23,871 nucleotides of DNA, taken from IMG/VR virus record IMGVR_UViG_3300025632_000079, positions 1 through 23,871 of that record, one strand, 5' to 3'. The notes under the pieces were generated by a model. That model worked only from the letters and a program-made list of their open reading frames with translations, ran no database searches and was not told where the DNA came from. Positions within the stretch are counted from its first letter, which is position 1; the number at the start of each line of letters is the position of its first letter. The position numbers and the translations under genes were made by a program. Positions 4,650 through 16,938 of this stretch are shown in pieces. Source of the stretch: a virus.

Positions 4650-4856
4650 ATGCCAGATTTCGTTGATGGCCTACGCGCCAAAAAACCAAATGATAAAGCA
4701 CCAGACTTCGTTAAGTGCAATCTTAGCATAAAACGCGAAGACCTGTTGGCGTGGTTGTCCACAAGAAACGACGAATGGATCAACGTCCAAGTCAAAGAAA
4801 GCGGTAAAACCGGCACATGGTACGCAGAAGTGGATACGTGGGAGCCCCGCAAATGA
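4650..4856 (+). CDS. Conserved-looking hypothetical small protein
   Basis: 68 residues starting MPDFVDGLRAKKP, with a strong AAAGGAG site at 4637-4643. A middle helix (KREDLLAWLS) is followed by alternating strands ending in WYAEVDTWEPRK. This pattern (short N-terminal tail, K-E-DL-W, then Y-A-D-W near the end) is familiar from small phage proteins of unknown function. No catalytic motif or membrane segment is visible. It is the first gene of the A-rich early block and overlaps the next by ATGA. Confidence 0.7.
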   Translation: MPDFVDGLRAKKPNDKAPDFVKCNLSIKREDLLAWLSTRNDEWINVQVKESGKTGTWYAEVDTWEPRK

Positions 4857-5170
4857 AGTTGACGCCGGATTCCGAAAAATACCAAACCCTCTACTTCGAG
4901 GCTTGGACCAAACAAAATAAAATTGACGGCCGAAAAAACCCGGACATGCTTAAAAAAGACACAAAAAAAGCATGGGACAACGGTAAAGTAAACGGAGCGT
5001 TAGGAGGCCGTAAAAAAATCACCTTGGACAAATGGCCCGAAAAAGCTAAAATCATAAACAATATGAAACTTAAAGGCATGTCCAATAATAAAATAACGGA
5101 ACTTACAGGCATAAACTTGTCATCCGTTAAAGATTTCGTCAAAAGATACGACCTGCCAAAGGAAGTCTGA
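4853..5170 (+). CDS. HTH domain protein
   Basis: 105 residues from the ATG at 4853 (ATGA overlap with the previous gene, GGAG eight bases upstream); the more upstream start at 4817 would overlap more and lacks support. The N-terminal half is Lys-rich. The C-terminal part (EKAKIINNMKLKGMSNNKITELTG, then INLSSVKDFVKRYDLP) has the three-helix pattern of resolvase/Hin-type helix-turn-helix domains, so sequence-specific DNA binding is likely. No recombinase catalytic domain is present. It is probably an early regulator co-transcribed with its neighbours. Confidence 0.65.
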   Translation: MKLTPDSEKYQTLYFEAWTKQNKIDGRKNPDMLKKDTKKAWDNGKVNGALGGRKKITLDKWPEKAKIINNMKLKGMSNNKITELTGINLSSVKDFVKRYDLPKEV

Positions 5171-5171
5171 A

Positions 5172-5459
5172 GTGAAAGCAACGCGACTCAGTGAAGCCGA
5201 AGAAGAAGCAAGAAACGACTTCTTTATGGCAATGGATTGCGCGCAAGACTTGATCCAAGAAATGGTAGAAAGTGACATAAACATGGGCGCAGCACTCGGA
5301 GGCATACTAACGCAAACCCTCACCGCGCTCATGTCCGTCGCTCCAAATAACGAAACCGCAATGAAAGTCCTATCGTCTTGTATCCATAATGCGTCCTTTA
5401 CGTCCCTAGAAACCTCCGAACACGAACAAACGCACCAAGGGTCAGACGAAATACACTGA
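5172..5459 (+). CDS. Hypothetical helical protein, GTG start
   Basis: 95 residues starting at GTG 5172, two bases after the previous stop, with AAAGGA eight bases before it. It is predicted mainly helical: a charged helix (SEAEEEARNDFFMAMD), a longer hydrophobic-amphipathic stretch (MGAALGGILTQTLTALMSVAP, not long enough to be a convincing membrane helix) and a His/Gln/Glu-rich tail. Function not recognised. A promoter follows directly after its stop, so this is probably the end of the transcript started at 4.6 kb or read into the next gene. Confidence 0.6.
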   Translation: MKATRLSEAEEEARNDFFMAMDCAQDLIQEMVESDINMGAALGGILTQTLTALMSVAPNNETAMKVLSSCIHNASFTSLETSEHEQTHQGSDEIH

Positions 5460-5462
5460 CAC

Positions 5463-5492
5463 TTGACAGTATCGCATAACATCCCATATAGT
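5463..5492 (+). promoter_or_regulatory. Sigma70-type promoter with ATCGCATA operator motif
   Basis: Perfect -35 TTGACA (5463-5468), 18-base spacer and TATAGT (5487-5492). The recurrent 8-mer ATCGCATA sits in the spacer (5471-5478), where a bound protein would block RNA polymerase. The ribosome site TATGGAG follows at 5507-5513. Confidence 0.75.
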
Positions 5493-5519
5493 TAAACGGC
5501 ATAAACTATGGAGATGAAA

Positions 5520-5915
5520 ATGCAAAAACTACTGTCTATCGAAGAAGTAATGAAAATCACAGGTAAAGCTAAACCTACAATATACCGGCGTACCGCAGAA
5601 GGCACGTTCCCAACACCCGTCGAAGTGCCGTCAACCGCGCTCCGCGGGCCAAAAACAAAAAAAATGTGGGACGAAAAAGACATAATGGCGTGGAAAAGAG
5701 AAATGAAGTTCGTGCCGAAAAAAGAAAATATCGTCCTCGACAACGGTGAAAACATCGGAAGACAAGAACAAAACCACGAACAGGTTAACCCCTTTTCAAA
5801 CAACCCGTGGACGAACCTGCTAGACGAACCAAAATGGTACGTTAAACATAAATTCCTAGTCTGGGCCGCCATCGGAGGCCTGCTCGCAGGTATAATAGGA
5901 AGCGTTTGGGGTTAA
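5520..5915 (+). CDS. AlpA-like DNA-binding protein with C-terminal membrane helix
   Basis: 131 residues from ATG 5520 (GGAG six bases upstream; the ATG at 5508 is part of that site). The N-terminal ~60 residues (LLSIEEVMKITGKAKPTIYRR, then GTFPTPVEVPS and KMWDEKDIMAWKRE) follow the MerR/AlpA-type winged-helix excisionase/activator pattern. The C-terminus has a hydrophobic segment at about 112-130 (FLVWAAIGGLLAGIIGSVW) preceded by Lys/His, so it may be anchored in the inner membrane with the DNA-binding domain in the cytoplasm. A polar linker joins the parts. AlpA proteins are normally soluble, ~70 residues. It has its own promoter carrying ATCGCATA, shared with later cassettes. Confidence 0.75.
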   Translation: MQKLLSIEEVMKITGKAKPTIYRRTAEGTFPTPVEVPSTALRGPKTKKMWDEKDIMAWKREMKFVPKKENIVLDNGENIGRQEQNHEQVNPFSNNPWTNLLDEPKWYVKHKFLVWAAIGGLLAGIIGSVWG

Positions 5916-5933
5916 ATAAACAAAATAACCCAA

Positions 5934-5962
5934 TTGTGACGACGGTATCGCCATCGTCACAA
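5934..5962 (+). other. Long intergenic hairpin without T-tract
   Basis: Twelve-base arms, 5934-5945 and 5951-5962, pair with one C/A mismatch around loop TATCG. No T-run follows, so this is more likely an RNA stability or processing hairpin, or an inverted-repeat binding site, than a terminator. Confidence 0.65.
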
Positions 5963-5988
5963 TCTATAAAACAAAAAAAGGAGTGAAA

Positions 5989-6069
5989 ATGACCAAAGAA
6001 AAACTGGAAATGGAAAAAATGCTCAACGAAGTGTTCCAAAAAGTGTTCGGAACAAAATGGGGAGCTTAA
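5989..6069 (+). CDS. Putative 26-residue microprotein
   Basis: Very short frame with an excellent ribosome site (AAAAAAAGGAGTG) correctly spaced before ATG 5989. Product begins MTKEKLEMEKMLNEVF and ends FGTKWGA: one amphipathic helix. Whether it is translated is not certain, but the ribosome site has no other gene to serve. It lies between a hairpin and the CSD-like gene. Function unknown. Confidence 0.45.
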   Translation: MTKEKLEMEKMLNEVFQKVFGTKWGA

Positions 6070-6086
6070 AGCATAAAGGATAAAAC

Positions 6087-6608
6087 ATGCTAAATGGACT
6101 GCTGGAAAAAAAACAAGGCGTCATCATAAACATATTAAATGATAAAAAATGTGCTTTCGCTCAAATCGAAAACGATGAACAAGTCTTCATCGAACCAAAA
6201 TTTACCACAGGACTAAAACTGCAAATCGCAGACCAAGTGGAAATGGTGGTAATTTCTAACACGCGATTCACAACACAGTGGAAAGCAATAAAAGTAGAAC
6301 TAATAAACCAACACGGGGAAACAACAACACAACCCGAAACAAAACCCGTGCTGACACTGCAACAAGAAATCATGCTGTTCCTAACAGAAGAACCAGACAT
6401 GTGCTTCACAACAAAACAAATAAAAGAAGGCCTCGGTCTAAGCATTGGACAAGAAGACGTGCGAAGAGAAGCAGAAAAGTTGCACAACGCAAATAAAATA
6501 TGTCGCGCTAAAGTATGCGGACCAAACTACAAAAAACAAACGACTTTCAACCTATACTCCAAAAATATCGAAGCGTTCATCTTCGATGTCGAATACGAAA
6601 CCCAATAA
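6087..6608 (+). CDS. Cold-shock-like OB domain plus winged-helix protein
   Basis: 173 residues, start ATG 6087 with AAAGGA upstream. Residues ~8-70 (QGVIINILNDKKCAFAQIENDEQVFIEPKF...) follow the strand pattern of a cold-shock OB fold (G-x-I-x-x, G/A-F-A-x-I, VFI), which binds single-stranded nucleic acid. After a Thr/Glu-rich linker, residues ~92-165 look like a winged helix (QQEIMLFLTEEPDMCFTTKQIKEGL, then VRREAEKLHNANKICRAKV). The combination suggests a DNA/RNA-binding regulator. It is the last gene before a terminator and is strongly A-rich in third positions, like its neighbours and unlike the head genes. Confidence 0.6.
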   Translation: MLNGLLEKKQGVIINILNDKKCAFAQIENDEQVFIEPKFTTGLKLQIADQVEMVVISNTRFTTQWKAIKVELINQHGETTTQPETKPVLTLQQEIMLFLTEEPDMCFTTKQIKEGLGLSIGQEDVRREAEKLHNANKICRAKVCGPNYKKQTTFNLYSKNIEAFIFDVEYETQ

Positions 6609-6630
6609 AATAAGGCGCTTAACGTAATCT

Positions 6631-6664
6631 AAAGCCCGCGGCACACGGCTCGCGGGCTTTTCTG
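6631..6664 (+). terminator. Rho-independent terminator, end of early block
   Basis: Perfect 10-bp stem AAAGCCCGCG (6631-6640) / CGCGGGCTTT (6651-6660) with 10-base loop, followed by TCT. The A-run on the left arm would let it also act on the other strand. Confidence 0.85.
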
Positions 6665-6996
6665 TGTAAACCGAGGCCCACGGCTCGCGGTGCGGTTACA
6701 AATAAACGCGTTCCCTTATATATAGAGCCAGAAATAAAAATAAATATTTTTTGTAAAAATAGGCGTAACCGGTGTAACCGTGTAACTTTAGGTGTTTTCT
6801 CCTGTGTATATAAGGAGTTAGAAGTAACACAAAGTAGTTTTTAAAAATGTAACGTAACCAGAGTTTGTGTAACCTTAGAGGCCCAAAGTGCGTTAAGGGG
6901 GTCTGAAAGTTTTTTTATTTTTTTTTATTTCTGTAGCTATATATACAAGAGAGCGTTTTTAGTATTAAACTATCTGCAAATAACTAGGATACTCAT
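6665..6996. other. AT-rich non-coding region with iteron-like GTAAC repeats
   Basis: No credible gene in 330 bases. GTAAC occurs at least six times in one orientation (6765, 6774, 6782, 6823, 6849/6854, 6869) and once inverted as GGTTAC at 6694; three copies from 6763 are nearly tandem. An inverted CTCCT/AGGAG pair lies at 6799-6817. Long T/A stretches follow (6908-6960). Iterons beside an AT-rich stretch are typical of a replication origin or a regulatory region. The DNA just before terS could also carry its promoter. Function inferred. Confidence 0.5.
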
Positions 6997-7626
6997 ATGG
7001 CCTCGAAAGCTAAATCAAGCCCCCCTGCTAAGATCAAAAGCCGCGGGCGACCTAAATCAACGAAATCAGCGGTCCTGACTAGGCGGCAAGAGCTTTTTGT
7101 AAAAGAGCTTGTCTCAAAAGACGGCCAGATCACTATGCGAGAAGCTGCCATTAATGCTGGATACCCCGCAGGATCAGCGCACACCCGAGCATATGAGATG
7201 ACCAATCCCAATATCTGTCCCCATGTGGTGGCAGCTATACAATCGTATCGCGCCGAGCTTGATGAAAAGTTTGGCGTGAATTACCAGCGGCATCTGCGCG
7301 ACCTTCAAACCATCCGCGATGCAGCATTAACCAACGGAGCCTATTCGGCAGCCGTTCAAGCAGAATATCGGCGGGGGCAAGCGCAAGGCGATATTTATGT
7401 GAGCAAATCAGAAATCCGTCATGGCAGTATCGATTCGATGAGCAAGGACGAAGTGCTGAACGCTCTGAAGGAGATTAAACAAAGTTATGCCCCGATCACT
7501 ATCGACGTTACTCCCGAAGGAGAGAGCAATCCCCAGAACCGCGACAAAGCGCGAGGCCGACTTTTGGAGGCTGATGAAGACTGGGATGCAGAAGAGCCCG
7601 AGAACATGGAAAAATACCCGAATTGA
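6997..7626 (+). CDS. terS: Terminase small subunit
   Basis: 209 residues, start ATG 6997 with AGGAT six bases upstream. After a basic tail, residues ~27-85 (LTRRQELFVKELVSKDG, TMREAAINAGYPAGSAHTRAYEM, VVAAIQSYRAELD) match the Terminase_2 DNA-binding helix-turn-helix family, which recognises the packaging site and delivers DNA to the large subunit. The middle is helical (oligomerisation), and the C-terminus is acidic (ADEDWDAEEPENME), as expected for contact with the large subunit. Unusually, terL lies 4.4 kb downstream. The last 140 bases may be translated in a second frame as the next gene. Confidence 0.85.
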   Translation: MASKAKSSPPAKIKSRGRPKSTKSAVLTRRQELFVKELVSKDGQITMREAAINAGYPAGSAHTRAYEMTNPNICPHVVAAIQSYRAELDEKFGVNYQRHLRDLQTIRDAALTNGAYSAAVQAEYRRGQAQGDIYVSKSEIRHGSIDSMSKDEVLNALKEIKQSYAPITIDVTPEGESNPQNRDKARGRLLEADEDWDAEEPENMEKYPN

Positions 7627-11545: not shown

Positions 11546-11574
11546 AGGCCCGCCATTGCGCGGGCCTTTTCTTT
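11546..11574 (+). terminator. Rho-independent terminator, CATTGC loop
   Basis: AGGCCCGC (11546-11553) / GCGGGCCT (11560-11567), loop CATTGC, then T-rich TTTCTTTT. Third member of the CATTGY-loop series. Confidence 0.9.
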
Positions 11575-11591
11575 TGCGCAGAGTTAAACAG

Positions 11592-11935
11592 TGAAACAAG
11601 CCGGGCCAAGGCCCGCGGCGTACCGCCCAAACCTACCGGGCCGAGATCCCCGGCCGCTGGACCGGGCCCAGCCGGTGACGGTTAGCGATCCCCAGCCGGT
11701 GGCAGTTAGAGCGCAGCCGGTGCCAATTAACCGAGCCCACCGGGCAAAAATTAACGCGCAGCCGTCCCCGGTCCGACATCAAAACCCGCGCAGCTGGACC
11801 CCGGGCCACGGCCCGCGATCCCCGGCAATTCGCCCGGGTCCCCCGGATATCGGGTCAAAAACCACAGTTTTCGCGCCAAAAAACCAGCCCAAAACCCGCG
11901 GCCCGGGGTTTGCGTACCGAGGGCTTGGGCCATGT
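11592..11935. other. Very GC-rich non-coding element before terL
   Basis: About 340 bases, clearly richer in GC than either flank and dense in CCCGGG, CCGCGG and GGGCCC palindromes. AGCCGGTG followed by a variable C-x-x-TTA recurs three times at roughly 22-25 base steps (about 11669-11730), and GATCCCC recurs three times. A GTG-started frame (11591-11986) spans it, but its Pro/Arg-rich product and lack of a ribosome site argue against translation. Possibilities are a structured RNA, a packaging site or foreign repeat DNA; nothing decides between them. Confidence 0.5.
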
Positions 11936-11958: not shown

Positions 11959-11987
11959 TTTCCAACGAGCCCTAACTGTCCTATAAT
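11959..11987 (+). promoter_or_regulatory. Candidate late promoter before terL
   Basis: TTTCCA (11959-11964), 17-base spacer and a perfect TATAAT (11982-11987). ATCGCATA follows at 11998-12005, about where the transcript would start. Confidence 0.6.
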
Positions 11988-12005
11988 AGCCCGTAATATC
12001 GCATA

Positions 12006-12021
12006 TGTTTCACGTGAAACA
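12006..12021. promoter_or_regulatory. parS: Perfect chromosomal-type parS site
   Basis: TGTTTCACGTGAAACA is a perfect 16-bp palindrome identical to the bacterial chromosomal parS consensus bound by ParB. It lies in the presumed terL leader, directly after the ATCGCATA motif and 41 bases before the terL start. No parA or parB is in the window, so host ParB is the likely reader. Sequence identity is certain; function is inferred. Confidence 0.8.
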
Positions 12022-12062
12022 TTGGCCGTGAACCGCGTACCATAAATTAAGTAGGGTCCCCC

Positions 12063-13526
12063 ATGAACGTTGCTCAAAATTCGTTGTTAGAGGATAAAAA
12101 ATTAAAATTAGAGTTACGTTTGGCTCAGATCATGAAGAATGAGGAGTGCCAAAATAATTTTTTAGTTTTTGTAAAAACTGTTTGGCCTGATTTTATTGCG
12201 GGCCGTCATCATAAGATTATTGCTGAGAAGTTGGAAAGGGTTGCAAATGGCGACTTAAAGCGACTTATCATCAACATGGCTCCGCGGCACACGAAGAGTG
12301 AGTTTGCGAGTTATTTATTTCCGGCATGGATGATGGGCCGTAATCCGAAGATGAAGATCATTCAGGCGACGCACACGACGGAGTTAGCGGTTAACTTTGG
12401 TCGTAAGACGAAGAACTTGATTGAGAGTGACGATTACAAGGATGTGTTCCCGGGCGTGAAGCTGGCTGCTGACAGTAAGGCGAGTGGTCGTTGGGACACG
12501 AGTTCTGGCGGGATGTATTATGCTGTTGGTGTTGGTTCGAACTTAGCTGGTCGTGGTGGTGATTTAATTATCATTGACGACCCTCATTCTGAGCAGACGG
12601 CGATGAGCAACACTGGTTTTGAGGACGCTTGGGATTGGTACACGGGTGGACCGAGGCAGCGTTTACAGCCGGGTGGGAGCATAGTTTTGGTTCAGACGCG
12701 GTGGTCTGAGAAGGACATGACGGGTCAGTTGATGCGGGCTCAAGCGAAGGACGGTTCTGCGGATCAGTGGGAAGTCGTTGAATTACCTGCTATTTTTGAG
12801 GACGGGACTTCTTGTTGGCCTGAGTATTGGAGTTTGGAGGATTTGACTGCGGTTAAGGCTTCTATTCCTCCGAGCAAGTGGAATGCGCAATATCAGCAAA
12901 ATCCTACGGGTGAGGAGAATGCGATTATCAAGCGCGAGTGGTGGCGTGTTTGGGATCAGGATAAGGTTCCTCAGTTGGAATATGTTATTCAGAGTTACGA
13001 CACGGCTTTTAGTAAGCGGGAGACTGCTGACTTTAGTGCGATTACGACGTGGGGGGTATTTTATCCGAATGAGGGTGGTTCTGGGCCTAATTTAATTTTG
13101 TTGGATGTTAAGAAAGGGCGTTGGGATTTTCCTGAGTTAAAGCAGGAGGCTTTAGAAAATTATAAATTTTGGGAGCCTGACACGGTTATTGTTGAGGCGA
13201 AGGCTTCTGGGACCCCTTTGACGCAGGAGTTACGTGCTATGGGGATTCCTGTTGTGAATTTCACTCCAAGTCGTGGTAATGACAAGATTACTCGGGCGCA
13301 TAGTATAGCGCCATTATTTGAGGCTGGGATGGTTTGGGCTCCTGACGAGATGTGGGCGGAGGAGTTAATTGAGGAGGTTGCGGCGTTCCCGAATGGGGAG
13401 CATGACGACTTGGTAGATAGTATGACGCAGGCACTTATGCGCTATAGACAAGGTAATTTTGTACAATTACCAACAGATGACTGGGAAGATGAAGAAAACT
13501 CTGCTAAAGTGCGATTGTATTATTAG
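12063..13526 (+). CDS. terL: Terminase large subunit
   Basis: 487 residues, start ATG 12063 with AGGG seven bases upstream. ATPase domain: Walker A-like MAPRHTKSE (72-80, a phage variant of PRHGKS), Walker B LIIIDD (168-173) and coupling motif QTRW (211-214). Nuclease domain (RNase H-like): D313 (SYDTAF), E378 (VIVEAKASG) and D448/D449 (GEHDDLVDS). It packages DNA into the prohead and cuts the concatemer. Third codon positions are rich in T and G, unlike the A-rich early block. It opens the head operon behind its own promoter, the parS site and a recurrent operator motif. Confidence 0.95.
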   Translation: MNVAQNSLLEDKKLKLELRLAQIMKNEECQNNFLVFVKTVWPDFIAGRHHKIIAEKLERVANGDLKRLIINMAPRHTKSEFASYLFPAWMMGRNPKMKIIQATHTTELAVNFGRKTKNLIESDDYKDVFPGVKLAADSKASGRWDTSSGGMYYAVGVGSNLAGRGGDLIIIDDPHSEQTAMSNTGFEDAWDWYTGGPRQRLQPGGSIVLVQTRWSEKDMTGQLMRAQAKDGSADQWEVVELPAIFEDGTSCWPEYWSLEDLTAVKASIPPSKWNAQYQQNPTGEENAIIKREWWRVWDQDKVPQLEYVIQSYDTAFSKRETADFSAITTWGVFYPNEGGSGPNLILLDVKKGRWDFPELKQEALENYKFWEPDTVIVEAKASGTPLTQELRAMGIPVVNFTPSRGNDKITRAHSIAPLFEAGMVWAPDEMWAEELIEEVAAFPNGEHDDLVDSMTQALMRYRQGNFVQLPTDDWEDEENSAKVRLYY

Positions 13527-14481: not shown

Positions 14482-16938
14482 ATGGCTGAAGAAATAAATG
14501 GTTACTCGGGTAGTTTAATGGACAACAATGTCCCTGCGCAGCTTGACGAGGATGACTTAAAGGCTGAGATGGAGATTGAGCTTCCTGATTCACAGAACGA
14601 CGTTATGGCTATGATTAGTGCCGAGGACGTTGGCGAGATAGAAATCAGTGAGACTGACGACGGCGGTGTTGAGGTTGATTTCGATCCCCAAGACCAGCGC
14701 GGCGAGGACATGGATTTTTATGCCAACTTGGCTGAAGAGATGCCGGATCGTGAATTGCAGCGCATTGCGGGTGATTTATTGAGCGAGTATGACGCGAACA
14801 AGGCCAGTCGTCAGGACTGGGAGGATGCGTATTCGAGTGGTTTGGAGCTTTTGGGCTTTAACTACGAGGAGCGGACGCAGCCGTTTCGTGGGTCCTCGGG
14901 TGTTACGCATCCGTTGCTTGCGGAGGCTGCCACACAGTTTCAGGCGCAGGCTTTTAATGAGCTTTTGCCGTCTAGCGGGCCTGTTCGTACTGTTGTTATG
15001 GGCCAAGAGACGCGGGCCAAGGCTGCTCAATCGCAGCGTGTCCGTCAGTTTATGAATTATTATATTACGAATGTCATGGAGGATTACACTCCGGACATGG
15101 ACCAGATGCTGTTTTATTTACCGCTTGCTGGTTCGACGTTTAAGAAGACGTATTACGATGAGGCTCTGGGCCGTGCGGTCAGTAAGTTTGTTCCTGCGGA
15201 GAATTTAGTTGTTCCGTATGAAACTTCTGATCTTGAGACGTGTCCTAATATTACTCAGGTTGTTCGGATGTCTTTGAATGATTTGCGTAAGCGTCAGCTT
15301 GCGGGGATTTATTTGGATGATGTTGACGTTATTCCCGCGCAGCGGGAGGTTACGGGCGTTGAGGGCGAGATAGATCGCATTGACGGCATTCAGCCGGGTA
15401 CGGTTGATTACGACTGTACGATTCTTGAGTGTCACGTTGATTTGGACCTTGAGGGTTATGAGGAGCTTGACGAGGACGGCGAGCCTACGGGCATTCGGGT
15501 CCCTTATATTGTTACGCTTTCCATGGACAACGGGCAGGTTTTGTCTGTTCGTCGGAATTGGACCGAGGACGATGAGCGGAAAAAGAAGATACAATTTTTT
15601 ACGCATTTTAAGTTTTTGCCGGGGTTTGGTTTTTACGGCCTTGGTTTGATACATACGATTGGGGGTCTGTCACGGACCGCCACTTCGGCACTGCGGCAGT
15701 TAATTGACGCGGGTACGTTGTCCAACCTCCCTGCGGGTTTCAAGGCCCGTGGACTACGGATCAGAGACGATGATGAACCGTTGCAGCCCGGTGAGTTCCG
15801 CGATGTGGATGCTCCGGGTGGGGCTATCCGCGATAGTCTTATGCCGTTGCCCTTTAAGGGTCCGGATCAGACGTTGTTCCAGTTGTTGGGCTTTGTTGTT
15901 CAGGCTGGTCAGCGGTTTGCGACGATTACAGACTTGAAGGTTGGAGATGGCAACGAGAACGCGGCTGTCGGCACAACGATGGCTATGATGGAGCAGGGCT
16001 CTCGTGTTATGAGTGCGGTACACAAGCGTTTGCACTACGCGATGCGCCAAGAGTTTAAGATTTTGGCTCGTGTTATGTCGGAGAGTTTGCCGCAGGAGTA
16101 CCCGTATTCGGTTCCGGGCGGTGATGAGACGATCATGCGCGAGGATTTTGATGGTCGGGTAGATGTTATACCGGTCAGCAATCCGAATGTGTTCAGTCAA
16201 TCGCAGCGCATTATGTTGGCGCAGACCAAGTTGCAGTTGGCGTCTCAGGCTCCTGAGATACACAACATGCACGAAGTGTTTAGCGACATGTATGACGCTT
16301 TGGGTGTTACGGACACGGATCGTTTGTTGAAGTCAGTCCCGGCGGATACGGATGAGCCTGTTGATCCGGCGCAAGAGAACATCAATGCGTTGGACATGTT
16401 GCCGTTGAAGGCGTTTGAGGGTCAAAACCATCAGGCGCACATTACGGCTCACTTGTTGTTTGGCACTTCTCCGATTGTGGGCGGTATGCCTCCGGTAGCG
16501 ATTGCCGTTCAGAAGCACGTTATGGAGCATGTACAGATCGCGGCCCGCGAGCAAGCGGCGGTTGCGTATTTGCAGCAAGTTCAGCAACAGGGTGGTCAGC
16601 CTGCGGACGAGGAGCAAATGCTTCAGGTCGAGCAAATGACGGCTCAGTTTATTGCGGAAGGCTTACAGCAGCTTAAAGACTTGTCTGGTCAGCTATCGGG
16701 TGCTGGCGCTCCTGATCCATTGGTTCAGCTTAAAGAGCAAGAGTTGCAACAGAAGGCGGCGGCAGATCAAGCGGATACGCAGATCGATCAAGCCAAGCTG
16801 GAGTTGGATGCGCAGAACCAGCAGATGCGCGGACAGCAATTCCAGCAGCGGTTGCAGTCTCAGGAAGAGCAGACGGCGGCTCGTATTCAATCGGCCATGG
16901 ACCGTGAGTTGCTTAAACAGCGAGGGCAAACACAATGA
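14482..16938 (+). CDS. Portal protein, large
   Basis: 818 residues, start ATG 14482 with AGGAGG. After an acidic N-terminal ~80 residues comes the conserved portal entry: SRQDWEDAYSSGLELLGFNYEERTQPFRG then SGVTHPLLAEAATQFQAQ and ELLPSSGPVRT (about 110-172), known from large portals of marine phages. Later come SVRRNWTEDDERKKK, FYGLGLIHTIGGLSRTATSALRQLIDAGTLSNLPAG (about 390-425), typical of the stem/crown region, and a Gln-rich coiled-coil C-terminus (about 690-818). The dodecameric portal is the DNA channel and docks terminase. Its length exceeds P22 portal (~725), explained by the acidic head and Gln-rich tail. The stop overlaps the next start. Confidence 0.85.
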   Translation: MAEEINGYSGSLMDNNVPAQLDEDDLKAEMEIELPDSQNDVMAMISAEDVGEIEISETDDGGVEVDFDPQDQRGEDMDFYANLAEEMPDRELQRIAGDLLSEYDANKASRQDWEDAYSSGLELLGFNYEERTQPFRGSSGVTHPLLAEAATQFQAQAFNELLPSSGPVRTVVMGQETRAKAAQSQRVRQFMNYYITNVMEDYTPDMDQMLFYLPLAGSTFKKTYYDEALGRAVSKFVPAENLVVPYETSDLETCPNITQVVRMSLNDLRKRQLAGIYLDDVDVIPAQREVTGVEGEIDRIDGIQPGTVDYDCTILECHVDLDLEGYEELDEDGEPTGIRVPYIVTLSMDNGQVLSVRRNWTEDDERKKKIQFFTHFKFLPGFGFYGLGLIHTIGGLSRTATSALRQLIDAGTLSNLPAGFKARGLRIRDDDEPLQPGEFRDVDAPGGAIRDSLMPLPFKGPDQTLFQLLGFVVQAGQRFATITDLKVGDGNENAAVGTTMAMMEQGSRVMSAVHKRLHYAMRQEFKILARVMSESLPQEYPYSVPGGDETIMREDFDGRVDVIPVSNPNVFSQSQRIMLAQTKLQLASQAPEIHNMHEVFSDMYDALGVTDTDRLLKSVPADTDEPVDPAQENINALDMLPLKAFEGQNHQAHITAHLLFGTSPIVGGMPPVAIAVQKHVMEHVQIAAREQAAVAYLQQVQQQGGQPADEEQMLQVEQMTAQFIAEGLQQLKDLSGQLSGAGAPDPLVQLKEQELQQKAAADQADTQIDQAKLELDAQNQQMRGQQFQQRLQSQEEQTAARIQSAMDRELLKQRGQTQ

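Follow-up and report, generated by a model that had tools for sequence, protein, structure and literature searches.

A host-type parS site near the terminase gene of aquatic phages without partition genes, a probable loading site for host ParB

The window (the whole stretch of viral DNA that was analyzed, a 23.9-kb virus record) carries the 16-mer TGTTTCACGTGAAACA just past the TATAAT box of the predicted terL promoter and 41 nt before the terL ATG. Chromosomal ParB of the host probably loads at this orphan parS, which selection has maintained in a marine phage where no partition genes could be detected. That level of confidence refers to ParB loading and not to any downstream use of the loaded protein. 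The reading draws on the exact sequence of the site, selection at the level of DNA, its repeated placement among relatives, the failure to detect phage ParA or ParB, and an identical parS next to the parAB genes of a MAG with a phage relative in it.

The 16-mer matches the chromosomal-type parS palindrome TGTTYCACGTGRAACA at 16 of 16 positions. A preliminary description of the window had reported this exact match at 12006-12021, between TATAAT (11982-11987) and the start of terL, and both its sequence and its coordinates were confirmed, with terL starting at 12063. A scan of the window allowing up to three mismatches returned this site as the sole match, with no second parS, and shuffled sequences averaged 0.14 such matches. 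We place the terL transcription start near 11994, so parS would lie at about +12 to +28 of the predicted transcript. Table 1 lists the features of the region.

Table 1. Features around the parS site and the terL gene, in window coordinates
Feature	Position	Strand	Basis or remark
Terminator-like hairpin closing the upstream operon	11546..11567	+	sequence scan
Three iteron-like direct repeats around CAGCCGGTGNCNNTTA, spacing 24 and 21	11667..11730	+	GC-rich non-coding, upstream of the promoter
Weak -35-like hexamer TTTCCA	11959..11964	+	17 bp from TATAAT
Predicted terL promoter, -10 box TATAAT	11982..11987	+	10/12 promoter matches, 17-bp spacer
TCGCATA leader element	11999..12005	+	alignment; kept also in most parS-less relatives
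parS, perfect 16-bp palindrome TGTTTCACGTGAAACA	12006..12021	none	sequence match; kept in leaders of relatives
AGGGTCCCCC abutting the terL ATG, likely ribosome-binding AGGG in GGGNCCCC motif	12053..12062	+	function inferred
terL, large terminase, 487 aa	12063..13526	+	64% identity with the terminase of HTVC027P
Portal protein gene, 818 aa, downstream of terL	14482..16938	+	family marker for portal similarity

Terminase comparison relates the window phage to the Pelagibacter phages HTVC027P and HTVC023P and to phage DSL-LC04, the window terminase being 64% identical to that of HTVC027P and 56% to that of HTVC023P over 94-95% of the protein. Homology to these two terminases places the window in the HTVC023P-type group of podophages, as does the portal protein; a portal family (phrog_1216) was matched in the protein set of relative G009. 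Genomes of this group are about 55-60 kb (PMC9599517).

Among relatives with a readable terL leader, 61 of 79 carry TGTTYCACGTGRAACA within about 90 nt of the terL start codon, many of them as twin sites 23-25 bp apart. Across 38 distinct leaders, the parS columns are about 90-100% conserved, compared to mostly 30-60% in the flanks. Alignment of the leaders shows the parS block inserted right after TCGCATA; in parS-less relatives a clean block is missing between TCGCATA and the ribosome-binding motif, while the remaining leader aligns and the GGGNCCCC motif is conserved with and without parS. The preliminary description had named absence from close relatives as evidence against a selected site and had proposed looking for the site at the same place in related genomes. 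The expectation held for the 61 leaders that keep it and failed for the 18 that do not, and the leader position was kept in one subclade but had moved or was absent in others. The near-complete genomes G012 (56 kb), G092 and G094 contain no parS anywhere and, since about one-fifth of near relatives also lack the leader site, parS is not essential in every lineage or host. Among isolates whose hosts are known, most have no exact site (HTVC023P and DSL-LC04 have none). HTVC027P, which infects Pelagibacter, carries CGTTTCACGTGAAACA (MN698241.1 16412-16427), matching at 15 of 16 positions, between the convergent genes gp31 and gp32 and 4 kb upstream of terL. Roseobacter phage CRP-810 carries TGTTCCACGTGGAACC (OR671924.1 24250-24265), also a 15/16 match, within a large ORF far from terL.

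The abundance of the motif is far from what control sequences give. In 1.63 Mb of family DNA pooled from 165 sources it occurs 140 times in 85 contexts, and 150 permuted palindromes have 0 matches in the same DNA. At the two variable positions, only the four Y/R fillings, out of 16 possible ones, are found among the 140 family sites, all within the tolerance of chromosomal parS (C/T at position 5, A/G at position 12), and the variation of the family sites matches that of chromosomal parS (PMC7022226). Throughout IMG/VR, an exact-match scan found the parS 16-mer in at least 120 contigs versus 0 and 5 contigs for two palindromic 16-mers of matching composition that served as controls; the 16-mer is therefore selected and not a product of chance, which bears out the earlier estimate that a chance match would be negligible. 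By terminase or portal similarity, 31 of the 119 parS contigs among those listed belong to this phage family and six to a second group. Contigs outside both groups also carry parS, for example L143 (three sites), L149 and L153.

The position of the site differs from one subclade to another. In a subclade other than that of the window, 38 of 78 loci had exact sites, most of them lying either 0.24-0.64 kb upstream or 1.2-6.3 kb downstream of where the terminase match begins. The L226-type subclade has its site inside a long ORF between terL and the portal gene, 3-6 kb downstream, and locus L075 lacks the leader site and has one parS about 0.7 kb past terL. Within ORFs, parS encodes V[SP]R[EG]T, and parS DNA spells 30 of the 31 peptides of this form that occur in distinct contexts. 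Because the amino acids change at the bases where parS tolerates variation while synonymous changes are almost absent, selection on the in-ORF sites acts on DNA; a conserved protein motif in place of a DNA motif was ruled out by this codon usage. On a tree of 90 terminases, no fewer than 10 changes of site state are required, and many relatives keep or re-evolve parS. The second phage group (L310-L387), whose terminase is about 28% identical to that of the window, has at least one site in 35 of 69 loci, mostly within 2 kb upstream of terL, and its arrays hold two to five exact copies. In the long contigs of both groups, nearly all sites fall within about 6 kb of terL. Twenty genomes carry a site, and by manual calculation from the locus ranges no site in 18 of them is more than about 6.3 kb from terL; the other two are CRP-810 and G022, the latter lacking a terL position.

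As the window is a fragment, near-complete relatives were used for tests of gene absence, including G009 (complete as judged by a 127-bp end repeat), HTVC027P, HTVC023P and DSL-LC04. Profile searches found no ParB_N domain in the sampled family genomes or in the long contigs of the second group, and neither HTH_ParB nor ParA-type AAA_31 in the sampled family genomes, in agreement with the earlier remark that no ParA or ParB was in view. Weak ParB_N matches were confined to two large contigs outside the phage family, and among eleven parS contigs outside both groups, ParB_N matches were absent from ten and weak in the remaining one (L117). A search of 14 genomes for integrases of the tyrosine type found none. 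A phage-plasmid with its own ParABS was rejected on the absence of both ParB and ParA from the near-complete relatives, and the tyrosine-integrase result gives no indication of a temperate phage.

On the host side, a Rhodospirillales MAG (G121) has the identical 16-mer before rsmG-parA-parB and twice more between mnmE and mnmG, and this MAG contains a relative of the window phage with a twin site (L225). A Rhodobacteraceae MAG (G120) has the identical 16-mer at mnmG and before rsmG, and the phage contig in it (L224) is without parS. Gene names in both MAGs are our reading of translations, and the binning of phage contigs into MAGs is weak evidence of host rather than proof; no tRNAs that might serve as a host clue were found in the loci scanned. 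Published alphaproteobacterial parS sequences agree; chromosomal parS is given as TGTTNCACGTGAAACA, that of Caulobacter as t/cGTTt/cCACGTGAAAca, and that of Hyphomonas is exactly the 16-mer of the window (PMC7022226). As the site is host-type and selected, and as no ParA or ParB was found in the phage or its sampled relatives, host ParB is the likely reader of phage parS.

At infection, clamps of host ParB-CTP would load on the phage parS and slide over the neighboring several kb, which would comprise the packaging genes and the start of the late genes. The phage genome could thereby be handed to host ParA and condensin, so that it would be positioned, compacted and, if a slow-growing host divides before lysis, shared out between the daughters. 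We tentatively take such centromere mimicry as the most likely use of the site. The candidate gains are genome positioning or inheritance, late-gene timing, a ParB decoy and condensin recruitment. Cis-acting use of ParB for positioning, compaction or inheritance is favored over a pure late-gene switch because the distance and placement of the site with respect to the promoter differ among subclades. The odds are slightly below even that aquatic phages lacking partition genes use centromere mimicry generally, as a strategy that has so far escaped notice; genomes of several phage groups would then have between one and five orphan host parS sites close to the terminase genes, with host ParB serving for their placement, inheritance or timing.

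The main rival reading, with perhaps one chance in a few of being correct, is a timing switch, in which ParB bound at about +12 to +28 would block the terL promoter early and the late genes would come on once phage copies outnumber ParB. It stays the main rival because sites cluster near terL, as the 18 of 20 site-bearing genomes show, and because the site of the window subclade lies just behind the promoter, between the -10 box and the start codon. Repression by ParB has precedents, as ParB at parS3 and parS4 represses adjacent genes in Pseudomonas (PMC7022226) and plasmid ParBs silence genes several kb away (PMC7333895). Against a switch, the sites of other subclades lie 0.2-0.6 kb upstream or, within ORFs, 3-6 kb into the operon, and the same promoter region is retained in relatives without parS. 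Chromosomal ParB, moreover, usually affects transcription little. Silencing of the late operon, which the preliminary description had proposed, is possible in the window phage; it cannot be a function shared across subclades because the site moves between them and some relatives do without it, and a fixed role in the late-operon leader does not hold as a general rule, with other subclades carrying the 16-mer off the promoter or in an ORF. It is also conceivable, if rather improbable, that replicated phage copies soak up host ParB as a decoy, interfering with chromosome segregation or the cell cycle in a way that benefits the phage. The many positions of the site, the several copies per genome in the second group and the use of best-consensus sites only would suit a decoy, yet most genomes have only one or two sites, and the observed clustering near terL would not be needed for one.

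Readings that leave ParB out fare worse. An operator for a phage-encoded regulator, parS-like by accident, would account for the site at the promoter in the window subclade and could in principle be read by a DNA-binding protein with no resemblance to ParB. We regard it as quite improbable, given that no ParB-type domain was found in the genomes, that the second group has the identical site despite its distant terminase, that the sites vary as chromosomal parS does and that some lie within ORFs. Less probable again is a hairpin in the terL leader RNA that would influence translation or transcript stability; the perfect palindrome does fall in the predicted 5' leader and its pairing is preserved in both the T..A and the C..G variants, but the central ACGT, which would form the loop, is almost invariant among sites, the 16-mer is also found at many non-leader positions, ORFs included, and a search of Rfam for an RNA element gave no match. 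Least credible, and deserving almost no weight, is a functionless sequence present by chance or hitch-hiking, for which the absence of the site from some close relatives could be cited; controls at or near zero, conservation of the site over its flanks and the codon-level evidence already contradict it.

The phage site shares with parS of chromosomal ParABS systems (Hyphomonas, Caulobacter, B. subtilis) both the 16-bp palindrome and its tolerated variation, and is identical to the parS beside parAB in the MAG with a phage relative. Unlike chromosomal parS, it sits on a virus by the late operon, without parA or parB and away from a chromosomal origin. Phage-plasmids (P1, N15 and cluster A mycobacteriophages) likewise have a phage genome with a centromere, but they code for partition proteins of their own, each with a parS sequence of its own, and are maintained as plasmid prophages, whereas neither partition genes nor a tyrosine integrase were found in the sampled genomes of the window-phage family. 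The phage CTXphi uses host XerCD at dif, its integration site, and is thus another virus with a copy of a host chromosome-maintenance site on which host proteins act; parS, in contrast to dif, serves to load a sliding clamp, with no integration implied. Two papers on HTVC023P-type podophages (including PMC9599517) mention neither parS nor ParB, and our literature search, with preprints and most subscription papers outside its reach, returned no report of host-type parS on phages lacking ParAB. The capture of a host chromosome-sorting protein through an orphan parS may thus be undescribed. If the reading is correct, a lytic-looking virus from a group that includes relatives of abundant marine phages would be borrowing the host centromere, tying infection directly to chromosome segregation. 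This could explain how phage genomes persist through host division without partition genes, and phage DNA could readily be visualized in cells through labeled host ParB.

Finally, several further elements were observed around terL. The iteron-like repeats of Table 1, within a GC-rich non-coding stretch at 11580-11930, may mark an origin or a packaging site, and related repeats are present in L012, L029 and L047. Directly 5' of the terL ATG, AGGGNCCCC (12053-12062 and the corresponding position in relatives) is conserved regardless of parS, and L047 has a perfect 15-nt inverted copy of this pre-ATG motif (AGGGGCCCCTAGCTA) 231 nt further upstream. A weak Terminase_2 (small terminase) match at 6997-7626 lies 4.4 kb upstream of terL and does not adjoin it. 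In L147, the homology to terL on the reverse strand (4822-7239) is interrupted by about 1 kb in a manner resembling an intron or inserted gene.
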